Shown here piece by piece: positions 1,925-17,087 of a stretch of 64,000 bases of DNA (within the stretch, counting starts at the first letter, position 1; each line of letters begins with the position of its first letter). The translations under genes and the position numbers were made by a program. The notes under the pieces are model-generated. The model made no database searches. It had not been told where the DNA came from and saw only the letters and a program-made list of their open reading frames with translations. Location of the stretch: NCBI RefSeq assembly GCF_014295415.1, contig NZ_CP052909.1:2046001-2110000 (forward strand). Direction: 5' to 3'. The stretch is from Constantimarinum furrinae. GTDB taxonomy: Bacteria > Bacteroidota > Bacteroidia > Flavobacteriales > Flavobacteriaceae.

Positions 1925-3505
1925 TTATGCCTTCTTCTTTTTCTTTTTCTTTCTGAAGTAATCGAACACAAACCAGCCAGCCAAAAGAATAAGGAAATAT
2001 TTGAAGTATGACACAGGTTCTCCATCACCTCCAACCGTAGTAAACAGCCGTTCCCATCGAATTTTGTTTGCAAGACCCTTGGCGTTACTATCCCAGCTCA
2101 TCCAGACAAATACAGGTTTTCCAACCACATGATTAAACGGTACATACCCCCAGGTGCGCGCATCTTCACTGTTGTTTCGGTTATCTCCCATCATCCAATA
2201 ATAGTCCATTTTAAAAGTGTATTCGGTAATGGGATTACCGTTCAGCAATACCTGAGTACCCGATTGGGTGATGGTATTATCGATCCCCATCTCGCTGCCT
2301 TCATACACTTCAATGATGCGCTTGTAGAATGGGATGCTTTCAGAATTGATCGCTACCGTTGCCCCCTTTTCAGGGATATAGATAGGTCCGAAAAAGTCGT
2401 TATTCCATGAATACCTCCTGTCATTGGGAAAAATACCCGGATTCCATTGTCCTTCAGTGGCACTTGCTCTAACGATAGTATCCAGATTGGGATAGTTCTT
2501 GAATTTGGCATATTCCTCATCGGTCATATGCGTGTTAAAAAGTCTGTAGGAAGCCGGATTATCGGCCACATACAAGTCCTTTAAATTGTATTGCTGATAA
2601 GCGAATGTGGGATTTAACTGCTGTTTGGTTCTAAAGGAATATCCAAACTGAAGTTTTGCTCTATCGGGTAATTCATTCTGTTTACCGTTAATATAAACGT
2701 AGCCATTCTTCACGCTAAGAGAATCTCCGGGCATTCCGACACAGCGTTTTACGTAATTCGATTTTTTGTCAATGGGCTTGTAATAATATTTTCCGTCACC
2801 GTATTGCTGAAAGGCATTCACTGTATCCACCGGCCAATTAAATACCACGATGTCGTTTCTTTTTATTTTCTGAAATCCTGGCAGTCTGAAATAGGGTATC
2901 TGCGGTTCTGAAGTGTAGGACTTGGTTTTGATAACAGGAATGGTGTCGTGGACCATGGGAAAGGAAACCGGTGTCATTGGTGTTCTCGCTCCGTAATGGA
3001 ACTTGCTAACGAACAGGAAATCACCTACAAGCAAGGTCTTTTCCAACGATGAGGTAGGAATGGTAAAAGGTTGCATAATATAGGTGTGGACTATTGTAGC
3101 TGCCACTACCGCAAATAGAATGGAACTAACCCATTCTCCGGTTCCGGTACGGGGTTTTAGACTGCGATCCTTAATGTAGGTTACCTCCTGAGTATAATTG
3201 ATGTAGTAGATATACAGACCACATGTGAGAATCACCAAAAAGGTATCGAGAGTACTGTTCTTTCCAAAACTTCTAATGGTTTCTACCCAAACCACGGGAA
3301 ACATGATCAAATTCACAATGGGCACGAACAGCAGGATCGTCCACCACCACGGACGGTTAATGATCTTCATTAAAATAATACTGTTATACACGGGTACCGC
3401 CGCTTCCCAGGCTTGTCTACCGGCTTTTATGTAAAGTTTCCAGGTTCCCAGAAAATGGATCACCTGTATGACGAGAATAAACAATAACCATCCTGTCCAG
3501 CTCAT
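1925..3505 (-). CDS. lepB: Signal peptidase I with N-terminal DUF5684-like membrane extension
   Basis: A 526-residue membrane protease that removes signal peptides from exported proteins on the periplasmic side. The N-terminal 110 residues form a multi-helix DUF5684-like domain rich in tryptophan, then a further anchor (about 124-143) precedes the S26 protease domain. The catalytic serine is S153 in the box PTSSLEKTL and the general-base lysine is K253 in YVKRCVGMPGD. The usual SM dipeptide after the catalytic serine reads SL, which I have seen in flavobacterial homologues. The GDNRNNSEDAR motif near the C-terminus is intact. A C-terminal anchor ends in seven consecutive lysines. The large insert between the boxes is typical of Bacteroidota enzymes. 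It reads towards WbqC and lies downstream of dapB. Confidence 0.93.
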   Translation of the reverse strand: MSWTGWLLFILVIQVIHFLGTWKLYIKAGRQAWEAAVPVYNSIILMKIINRPWWWTILLFVPIVNLIMFPVVWVETIRSFGKNSTLDTFLVILTCGLYIYYINYTQEVTYIKDRSLKPRTGTGEWVSSILFAVVAATIVHTYIMQPFTIPTSSLEKTLLVGDFLFVSKFHYGARTPMTPVSFPMVHDTIPVIKTKSYTSEPQIPYFRLPGFQKIKRNDIVVFNWPVDTVNAFQQYGDGKYYYKPIDKKSNYVKRCVGMPGDSLSVKNGYVYINGKQNELPDRAKLQFGYSFRTKQQLNPTFAYQQYNLKDLYVADNPASYRLFNTHMTDEEYAKFKNYPNLDTIVRASATEGQWNPGIFPNDRRYSWNNDFFGPIYIPEKGATVAINSESIPFYKRIIEVYEGSEMGIDNTITQSGTQVLLNGNPITEYTFKMDYYWMMGDNRNNSEDARTWGYVPFNHVVGKPVFVWMSWDSNAKGLANKIRWERLFTTVGGDGEPVSYFKYFLILLAGWFVFDYFRKKKKKKKA

Positions 3506-16118: not shown

Positions 16119-16167
16119 CCACTCAAAATCTTAAAGCAACTGTTTTTTGAGATTTTGAAATACACCT

Positions 16168-16242
16168 CGGGGTGTAGCGTAGCCCGGTCATCGCGCCTGC
16201 TTTGGGAGCAGGAGGTCGCAGGTTCGAATCCTGCCACCCCGA
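16168..16242 (+). tRNA. tRNA-Pro (anticodon UGG)
   Basis: A 75-base cloverleaf: acceptor arms CGGGGTG and CACCCCG, anticodon stem CCTGC/GCAGG around the loop TTTGGGA (anticodon TGG), and T-arm GCAGGTTCGAATCCTGC. Discriminator A and the C1-G72 pair are the usual bacterial proline identity elements. CCA is not encoded. A copy of its last 17 bases plus flank recurs at 16331-16347. Confidence 0.95.
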
Positions 16243-16255
16243 CAAATCAAAAGGG

Positions 16256-16289
16256 AGTTTTTGTAGGAAGTTTACTTTCTTAAAAAAAC
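16256..16289 (+). repeat. tRNA-trailing repeat, copy 1
   Basis: A 34-base sequence beginning AGTTTTTGTAGGAAG, 33 of 34 identical to copy 2 at 16515-16548. It contains a near-palindromic AAGTTTACTT core that can fold into a short hairpin. It lies 14 bases after the first tRNA-Pro. Confidence 0.85.
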
Positions 16290-16330
16290 GAAGGCATTGA
16301 TTTGTGATACTCCACAGAGGATCATATAAT

Positions 16331-16347
16331 AATCCTGCCACCCCGAC
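16331..16347 (+). repeat. Duplicated 3' end of tRNA-Pro(UGG)
   Basis: AATCCTGCCACCCCGAC exactly repeats 16227-16243, the end of the upstream tRNA-Pro and its first flanking base, 104 bases away. No other part of a tRNA accompanies it, so this is a direct repeat rather than a tRNA gene. Confidence 0.9.
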
Positions 16348-16349
16348 CT

Positions 16350-16380
16350 AAAAATCCGAACAGAAATGTTCGGATTTTTT
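16350..16380 (+). terminator. Rho-independent terminator after tRNA-Pro(UGG)
   Basis: A hairpin with arms AAAATCCGAACA and TGTTCGGATTTT around a GAAA tetraloop, ending in a run of T. It lies directly after the duplicated tRNA 3' end and before the promoter of the second tRNA. Confidence 0.8.
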
Positions 16381-16382
16381 AT

Positions 16383-16412
16383 TTGCACAAGCTTTTAAAA
16401 TACCTATTTTTG
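16383..16412 (+). promoter_or_regulatory. Promoter of tRNA-Pro(GGG)
   Basis: TTG at 16383-16385 and TATTTTTG at 16405-16412, with a 19-base spacer. The arrangement is the same as the promoter of the first tRNA-Pro. The mature tRNA begins 13 bases after the -7 element. Confidence 0.75.
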
Positions 16413-16424
16413 CATTTCTAATTT

Positions 16425-16499
16425 CGGGATGTGGCGCAGTCCGGTTAGCGTACACGGCTGGGGGCCGTGTGGTCGCAGGTTCAAATCCTGTCATCCCGA
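16425..16499 (+). tRNA. tRNA-Pro (anticodon GGG)
   Basis: A 75-base cloverleaf: acceptor arms CGGGATG and CATCCCG, anticodon stem CACGG/CCGTG around CTGGGGG (anticodon GGG, G37), and T-arm GCAGGTTCAAATCCTGT with a terminal wobble pair. The discriminator is A and CCA is not encoded. Together with the UGG tRNA upstream it covers the proline codons other than those needing CGG. Its own 3' end is repeated at 16610-16628. Confidence 0.95.
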
Positions 16500-16514
16500 C
16501 TAAATAAAAGCTTT

Positions 16515-16548
16515 AGTTTTTGTAGAAAGTTTACTTTCTTAAAAAAAC
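16515..16548 (+). repeat. tRNA-trailing repeat, copy 2
   Basis: A 34-base near-identical copy of 16256-16289, starting 15 bases after the second tRNA-Pro. The core GAAAGTTTACTTTC is a perfect 6-bp stem with a TT loop. A diverged third copy seems to lie around 16645-16675. Confidence 0.85.
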
Positions 16549-16609
16549 TGGGGCTTTTGTTTTAAATAAAGCAAAGCTTTATTTGCAATGAGGGTTTATT
16601 AGGATTATG

Positions 16610-16628
16610 CAAATCCTGTCATCCCAAC
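16610..16628 (+). repeat. Duplicated 3' end of tRNA-Pro(GGG)
   Basis: CAAATCCTGTCATCCC (16610-16625) exactly repeats the 3' end of the second tRNA-Pro (16482-16497), 128 bases downstream. The next three bases read AAC instead of GAC. This mirrors what follows the first tRNA. Confidence 0.88.
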
Positions 16629-16744
16629 AAGCTAAAGCAAAGGGCTTACGTAGAATATTTATTTTCTTGAGTAAGCTTTTTTGCTTTAGATAAAATTAAA
16701 GCCTCGCTTTAATTTGCAACAAATGCGATGTAAAAGGATACTCT

Positions 16745-16940
16745 AAATCCTGTCTTTTGAGGAAATAAATAATAACTGCTGAAGGCGGTCATTATTAATT
16801 TACACCGAGTTTTTTTTTAGGATACTCTAAATCCTATCTTTTGAGGAAATAAATAATGACTGCTGAAGGCGGTCATTTTCCATTTACACTGAGGGGTTTA
16901 TTTGGGGTGATTTACATCCTGTCTTTTGAGGAAATAAAAA
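16745..16940 (+). repeat. Tandem repeat array, about 84-bp period
   Basis: Two full units (16745-16828 and 16829-16913) and a partial third (from 16914). Each starts with a variant of AAATCCTGTC, the tRNA 3'-end word, followed by TTTTGAGGAAATAAA. The full units contain AATRACTGCTGAAGGCGGTC, which folds into a hairpin with the ATT that follows. The third unit diverges after about 25 bases. No reading frame runs through the array. It fills most of the otherwise gene-free 16.5-17.09 kb stretch. Confidence 0.75.
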
Positions 16941-17087
16941 TCGACACTACCGTCTTTGGTCTACTCAGATTTTAGAAAATATCTACGTAACATATCCTTA
17001 TACAAATGGTTAATCTTCTTATAAAGTTTTAAAGCAGATTGAAGAGTTCAGTATCTTAGTAGGAAATCAATCATAATCCCAGTACAG

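Follow-up and report, generated by a model that had tools for sequence, protein, structure and literature searches.

The 3' ends of tRNA genes are the best known docking sites of large mobile elements, and the tyrosine integrases that use such ends typically place the boundary of the copied stretch in the T-loop. In Escherichia coli K-12, copies of the tRNA-Tyr end are found 156, 334 and 512 nt 3' of tyrV (period 178) and once behind tyrT, with the identity starting at A58, the same T-loop base as at the locus described below; the four units match RtT (Rfam RF00391, rttR) with 133–138 bits. The role of these RtT repeats is, to our knowledge, not understood. Two further systems share traits with the units described here, namely the GTAG-tagged palindromes of the REP/RAYT system and the gene cassettes of integrons.

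The locus lies in a window of 64,000 nucleotides (the whole stretch of DNA that was analysed) from Constantimarinum furrinae, whose genome is a single contig of 2.99 Mb. Two neighbouring tRNA-Pro genes had been predicted to be built alike, each followed by a 34-base repeat and then by a copy of its own 3' end. The coordinates and the survey scores given below confirm this arrangement, with the following features:

16168–16243, + strand: tRNA-Pro(TGG), host gene of unit 1 (ARAGORN, Rfam RF00005).
16244–16330, + strand: unit 1 (Pro_tgg type), hairpin H1 and a short hairpin with pairing potential for the beginning of the copy (related units at L002, L088 and other loci).
16256–16289, + strand: the 34-mer, apex of H1, with the core GTAGGAAGTTTACTTTCTTAA (sequence reading, repeat family D4, core scans).
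16331–16347, + strand: copy of the tRNA-Pro(TGG) 3' end, T-loop to C74, 17/17 (repeat family D3, genome tRNA survey).
16350–16379, + strand: terminator-like inverted repeat I3, 3' of the first copy (alignment with Altibacter, L080).
16425–16500, + strand: tRNA-Pro(GGG), host gene of units 2 and 3 (ARAGORN, Rfam RF00005).
16501–16609, + strand: unit 2 (type a), with H1 at about 16502–16562, H2 at about 16563–16585 and H3 at about 16600–16618 (fold z −6.8; homologous units elsewhere).
16610–16628, + strand: copy of the tRNA-Pro(GGG) 3' end, 18/19 (repeat family D3, genome tRNA survey).
16629–16735, + strand: unit 3 (type b, more decayed), H1 core near 16650–16670 (groups with type-b units of other genomes).
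16735–16938, + strand: 84-bp tandem array, 2.4 copies (tandem-repeat scan, repeat family D2).

By reading, the two 34-mers (16256–16289 and 16515–16548, inside family D4) are identical at 33 of 34 positions. The distances from original to copy are 104 nt (TGG) and 128 nt (GGG), and repeat families D4 and D3 reproduce both the repeat and these offsets. The first copy, AATCCTGCCACCCCGAC (16331–16347), matches its tRNA at 17/17 as predicted; the second, described earlier as 16 identical bases and then a mismatch, is better given as 18/19 over 16610–16628, with its single mismatch near its end. The 34-mer is indeed shared, but it is not the element itself: it forms the apex of the long hairpin H1, whose outer stem differs between loci, inside a unit of 85–130 nt. 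We use cassette for such a unit together with one copy of the last approximately 17 nt of the host tRNA (T-loop to C74), placed exactly at the tRNA 3' end. Unit 1 with its copy has an RNA fold z of −3.0. The original prediction did not extend to the third, different unit at 16629–16735 (fold z −4.6 over 16624–16735) or to the 84-bp array at 16735–16938, each copy of which contains, by reading, a decayed T-loop/T-stem word in an AGGAT...AAATCCTGTC-like stretch.

In a survey of the host genome's tRNA genes (37 rows, of which two are the same gene; 300 nt downstream; 50 shuffles per row), the window copies score 17/19 and 18/19 while the best shuffle never exceeds 14, which excludes chance for both. 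A second tRNA-Pro(TGG) with a unit is found 427 kb away (L002); its copy is decayed (13/19) and falls inside the shuffle range. Behind tRNA-Val(TAC) at L008, an exact 12-nt copy of that tRNA's 3' end (14/19) occurs at +111, and no H1 core was seen there.

Are these copies specific to the gene that they follow? With up to 4 mismatches allowed in the core, we collected 63 distinct stable-RNA genes that bear a unit (Pro 52, Tyr 4, Ser 3, tmRNA 2, Ala 1, Phe 1). A copy of at least 14/17 is present at 36 of them and is lacking at the other 27; the Tyr, Ala and Phe units have none at this threshold. When the 36 copies are compared with gene ends, the own gene is the best match for 34, is tied for 2 and is worse for none, and the own-end match includes Ser and tmRNA. 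The earlier claim that the copied word tracks the adjacent tRNA therefore extends well outside the window, and duplicates that fit another tRNA species better than their neighbour did not turn up, though 27 of the 63 genes have no copy to compare. Counted back from the end of the copy, the identity runs for 17 nt in 22 cases, 18 in 12 and 19 in 2, and the starts correspond to T-loop positions 58, 57 and 56. The copies begin 87–166 nt behind the tRNA, 33 of the 36 within 87–123 nt.

The likeness to RtT is close in anatomy. In both cases units lie behind a tRNA and end in a copy of its 3' end from the T-loop (in flavobacteria at the 36 of 63 genes just mentioned), tandem arrays occur, and, as judged by reading, base pairing is possible between the copy and an upstream strand of the unit to which it belongs. 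Unlike the flavobacterial copies, those of E. coli include the encoded CCA; and unlike RtT, the flavobacterial units are found at several tRNA species and tmRNA and have both filled and empty sites. The RtT model RF00391 has no match in the window at the Rfam cut-off, none in 16160–16960 at E <= 5 and none in seven flavobacterial loci at E <= 1. The flavobacterial units thus have an RtT-like anatomy and are no members of the RtT RNA family.

The core, GTAGAAAGYTYRCTTTC, carries GTAG as a tag where a short palindrome begins at its foot, and in passages of PMC3733652 and PMC6006769 the GTAG-tagged REP palindromes are likewise non-coding, clustered and have GTAG before a short palindrome. The phyla named with GTAG in a passage of PMC3733652 are Proteobacteria, Cyanobacteria, Chloroflexi and PVC, and Bacteroidetes are unnamed there. 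Unlike REP/RAYT, the flavobacterial units are tied to tRNA ends and carry the end copy. A search of the host genome (G000) for the Y1 transposase (PF01797) gave 0 matches at E <= 1, while the control was found in 10 of 14 genomes, and we rejected a REP/RAYT system on this ground. With integron gene cassettes the analogy is one of behaviour only (discrete units, a repeated attachment stretch, varying stacking order); unlike them, the flavobacterial units have no ORF. We also rejected the RNA family BTnc005 (RF04178): it matches the Ser unit L190 (1528–1692) weakly, with 28 bits against a cut-off of 174.8, and among 295 genomes scanned 32 have weak matches and none reaches the cut-off. The 20 matching loci that we viewed look driven by a terminator often found behind tRNAs. 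The consensus of this Bacteroides sRNA seems to contain a tRNA-Ser end. No description of such units in Flavobacteria was recognised among the titles and abstracts covered by our search, a scope that excluded most subscription journals and all preprints.

The 34-base repeat had been expected to be linked to tRNA genes in other flavobacteria, and this is what we find. A scan of a collection of species genomes for the exact 21-nt core gives 41 sites in 39 stretches, nearly all of them labelled Flavobacteriia or Flavobacteriales. Behind a tRNA or tmRNA lie 34 of the 41 (31 of them 19–36 nt 3' of an ARAGORN tRNA, one in a second stacked unit at L083, one behind tmRNA at L089 and one behind tRNA-Asn at L098), and the remaining 7 follow a loose tRNA-Pro end; a repeat lying mostly away from tRNA genes, which would have counted against the original prediction, did not appear. 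Across the family (397 genomes), a scan that tolerated one mismatch in the core gives 43 sites in 32 genomes (own genome included), and a reversed control pattern has 0 matches. We fetched 30 of these loci: 25 are linked to tRNA or tmRNA, 2 are orphans already seen, at one more (L209) the core lies behind a tmRNA-like end missed by ARAGORN, and no tRNA was found at L184 and L212. A looser scan (<=3 mismatches, 149 genomes) gives 29 matches in 20 genomes, and because its reversed control gives 16, it mixes chance and real matches, and we rely on the stricter scans. The core is also present, with 3 mismatches, behind a tRNA-Ala(TGC) that adjoins tRNA-Ile at two loci of the host genome (L073, L009, L010). 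The exact core has 0 matches in viral contigs. In a contig labelled as a Planctomycetota metagenome-assembled genome (L098), the core lies on the opposite strand behind tRNA-Asn (3334–3406, +), in the order terminator, opposite-strand core hairpin, copy; the copy of the tRNA-Asn end at +181 matches at 20/22 (upstream control 13/22), and the likeness runs a few bases beyond the tRNA end. This is perhaps the same anatomy in another phylum, or perhaps a mislabelled contig.

Since the exact-core loci are preselected by the core, an unselected survey is the fair measure of frequency. In the first relatives, 3 of 77 tRNA-Pro genes have a copy of at least 15/19, two of these being the window's own (tRNAs with less than 250 nt downstream were dropped and neighbouring tRNAs masked). 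The distribution of the units is patchy.

Our preferred reading, to which we give a moderate measure of confidence, is that these are small non-coding hairpin cassettes at tRNA ends, and that recombination through the tRNA-end repeat accounts for their gain, stacking and loss. One line of evidence comes from filled and empty sites. Altibacter (L080) has the same tRNA-Pro(TGG)/tRNA-Pro(GGG) pair with no unit behind tRNA-Pro(TGG), which is followed at once by the terminator. In the window, 104 nt (unit plus copy) intervene, after which the sequence again aligns with the Altibacter flank, with 68 identities in 77 nt; the counterpart of the terminator-like repeat at 16350–16379, which is absent from the listing of the terminator scanner, directly adjoins the Altibacter tRNA. 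We then aligned the 70 nt after the copy at 34 filled sites with the flanks of 97 other tRNA-Pro genes, and four other filled sites resume the flank of an empty site within one base. The clearest are L087 and L211 against empty L150 (same offset, and the same tRNA-Arg behind in a tRNA-Pro/tRNA-Arg pair) and L189 against empty L180 (offsets 1 and 0, one base off). The match of L101 to empty L138 is exact (0/0), but it involves a terminator type common behind tRNAs of different genera. Weaker pairs with a terminator-type flank, some across tRNA species, are L196 and L079 with L176, L206 with L138, and L100 with L126. Many of the 34 filled sites have no convincing empty partner, or match a unit because a second unit follows. 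These comparisons show an exactly placed insert with the tRNA 3' end directly repeated on either side, and they lend support to the idea of a miniature element at tRNA ends; exact deletion between the repeats yields an identical empty site, so no single pair tells gain from loss.

Stacking and similarity within the genome point in the same direction. Six loci have two H1 units within 700 nt. By reading, the two are of different types in four of them (window, a-b; L201, b-a; L083; L090), types a and b thus being stacked in either order, and they are near copies at L055 and L093. A tree of 56 Pro units is poorly resolved and most of its forks are weak; it places the first unit of the window's stacked pair in the type-a group (SH-aLRT 94) and the second in the type-b group (91). 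The tRNA label changes 7 times on this tree compared with 19 when shuffled (starred branches force only 1), which indicates that units mostly stay with their tRNA type and that movement between types is rare. Window positions 16151–16347 and positions 1406–1604 of L002 agree in 185 of 199 columns (94/104 for unit and copy alone). Their similarity does not extend past the final base of the copy, which is where an exchange that ended in the tRNA-end repeat would leave the boundary.

Under the cassette reading, the tRNA-end repeat would be the site of exchange. A gene without a unit could acquire one from a unit-bearing tRNA if the two recombined in the tRNA body and in the 17-nt repeat. Crossing over between the two repeats would excise the unit exactly, and uneven exchange would stack units. 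Host homologous recombination is one candidate agent, and a tyrosine integrase acting in trans on the T-loop is another. The occurrence of related units with matching copies at different stable-RNA genes suggests a target duplication at first insertion, which would explain it best. Where a unit precedes the terminator, it probably belongs to the tRNA precursor and is transcribed as its trailer. Several points weigh against exchange of this kind. Seventeen bases are short for homologous recombination, although the tRNA body adds homology on the left side; the rarity of movement between tRNA types is a second, and the high identity of type-a units could reflect selection on the RNA. The genes without a copy (27/63) and the filled sites without an empty partner count against it as well.

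The alternative that survives best, which we nonetheless consider unlikely, is a structured trailer RNA of the E. coli RtT kind. It would arise by local duplication of the tRNA end together with a hairpin and be shaped by RNA selection, gene conversion and frequent loss, with no mobility. Part of its support is the hairpin structure. Among aligned units the core GTAGAAAGTTTACTTTCTTAA is near-invariant, with Y/R loop changes elsewhere. RNAalifold on 19 units predicts two structures, H1 and another hairpin in which the opening bases of the copy are paired; 7 of 17 pairs have at least one double change, and, by reading, this third hairpin follows the T-stem sequence. A swap test of the H1 outer stem with the core left out is cleaner because it needs no alignment: the own partner gives −10.8 kcal/mol against −4.9 for swapped partners, and of 46 non-redundant units, 28 place their own partner within the top 5% and 18 do not. 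Such covariation counts in favour of a trailer RNA, and the kept pairing speaks for the cassette reading too. The tandem units of E. coli tyrT–tyrV, with the same T-loop boundary, set a precedent.

Sequence likeness between genomes can be read in two ways. Type-a units are 91–94% identical between the host genome and four others (G159, G089, G301, G318), whereas in G323 the first Pro_ggg unit belongs to a different kind (69% identity). In a uridine-kinase-family gene (PF00485) of the same four genomes, third codon positions are near saturation, agreeing at only 37–48%. The 100-nt upstream flank is conserved with respect to Altibacter (86%); at L081, L085 and L060 its identity lies close to that of shuffled sequence (0.61 against 0.56, 0.63 against 0.59 and 0.65 against 0.58), with higher values for the nearest 40 nt (0.62, 0.75 and 0.78). 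Selection on the RNA and horizontal spread both fit the likeness of the type-a units, and the patchiness (3 of 77 tRNA-Pro genes with a copy) favours spread. Three further observations argue against an immobile trailer RNA: one and the same tRNA can be followed by different unit types, with both stacking orders seen; the unit is missing from the empty flank and hence is no duplicate of that flank; and only a minority of relatives keep the unit.

It is improbable, in our judgment, that the units are scars of islands, i.e., remnants between attL and attR after deletion of an island integrated in the tRNA. Tyrosine-integrase islands at a tRNA attB do use the same target stretch, leave the tRNA intact and make a direct repeat of its end, and a T-loop boundary of the copy is typical of their integrases. 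tRNA-Pro is also a real island target. At one of the seven orphans, the core sites that follow a loose tRNA-Pro end with no tRNA, a tyrosine integrase (PF00589, E 7e-16; arm-binding domain) lies beside the displaced tRNA end (L111), the layout that integration of an island between tRNA and unit would produce. At L126, a 415-aa integrase (PF00589, E 7e-18) starts approximately 210 nt behind a unit-less tRNA-Pro. The other six orphans have no integrase among the upstream ORFs listed (L084 and L106 have little upstream sequence), and no island with these two ends was seen. The four Phage_integrase genes of the host genome are not linked to a unit, and the unit has no integrase gene of its own; 85–130 nt leave no room for a gene. 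Unlike such islands, the flavobacterial unit is thus small and gene-free, occurs at several stable-RNA genes and has no integrase tied to it. Random deletions would not give a multi-hairpin architecture conserved in many species, nor the narrow spacing of the copies.

Another candidate for spreading unit-bearing tRNA alleles is a GIY-YIG homing nuclease beside the tRNA, acting by co-conversion, and we consider it very unlikely. GIY-YIG genes do lie directly upstream of several tRNA-Pro genes (L002 1104–1432, L080 4178–5600, L126 540–1454, L081, L086, L110, L112, L202, L223). Some are tandem, with four in Altibacter (period 349) and three at L126 (period 304). A near-complete copy of the first 30 nt of the tRNA (28–30/30) precedes the GIY-YIG gene at 4 of 9 loci tested; by reading, Altibacter has an interrupted one. 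These 5'-half copies are the mirror image of the 3'-end copies. The phage protein SegB is a GIY-YIG enzyme. A passage of PMC13096335 describes amplification of tRNA segments by SegB, which offers a precedent. Yet GIY-YIG genes show no significant association with the unit: they accompany 6 of 49 tRNA-Pro genes with a unit and 3 of 44 without one (Fisher p 0.30). It is also improbable that the 34-mer is a relic of a GIY-YIG coding start, for which the gene beside the second tRNA-Pro(TGG) had been the candidate: the locus-specific pairing of the outer stem is unlike coding sequence.

Retroviral primer sites carry an 18-nt tRNA copy, which the length and T-loop boundary of the present copies recall, but the RNA-mediated process offered in the original prediction (reverse transcription of the tRNA 3' end) finds no support and is scarcely credible to us, since the copies end at the encoded C74 and a CA completing CCA follows only 1 of 36 (L104), about the chance level, so that a mature tRNA is an unlikely template.

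It is tempting to extend the cassette reading, though we do so tentatively and think the wider version doubtful. The units may form a class of gene-free cassettes that dock at tRNA and tmRNA 3' ends, with the stretch from T-loop to C74 as both attachment site and left-behind repeat. Such cassettes would vary in stacking order, travel from locus to locus and from one species to another, and be transcribed in the trailers of tRNAs. The tRNA-Asn case of L098 and E. coli RtT would then be distant or independent cases, and copying of tRNA 3' ends would be general in bacteria. If so, a gene-free unit of approximately 100 nt that is found at several stable-RNA genes would rank with the smallest cassettes of this kind and may alter the trailer of the tRNA precursor. 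It would also give the E. coli RtT repeats a comparative setting, in which filled and empty sites across the family would make gain, loss and the enzyme testable.

Two other features recur behind tRNA genes. A terminator of the AAACACTGTTAATcgTATGATTaTCAGTGTTTT type is found behind tRNA-Pro of different genera (L126 1530–1600, L138, L134, L156, L176 and others), sometimes close to GGTTACC-type repeats or to an integrase gene, and is perhaps the left end of an island family. The second is tandem arrays. Arrays with a period of at least 25 start no more than 300 nt downstream of 17 of 36 tRNA rows of the host genome (some rows share one array; the 37th row had 48 nt downstream), compared with 2 of 36 within 300 nt upstream. 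We rejected the idea that arrays carry the word of their own tRNA: in 15 non-Pro array rows the own word scores 8.4/14 and those of other tRNAs 8.0, only Met standing out (11; 0 of 31 others as high). With the own word barely above the others, the arrays are no evidence for the cassette reading. The only array of period above 25 in the 64-kb window is the one behind the tRNA at 16735–16938, and hairpin arrays with periods of 39–207 are seen behind tRNAs at L005, L006, L007, L008, L013, L022, L026, L032, L034, L068, L070, L002 and in the window.
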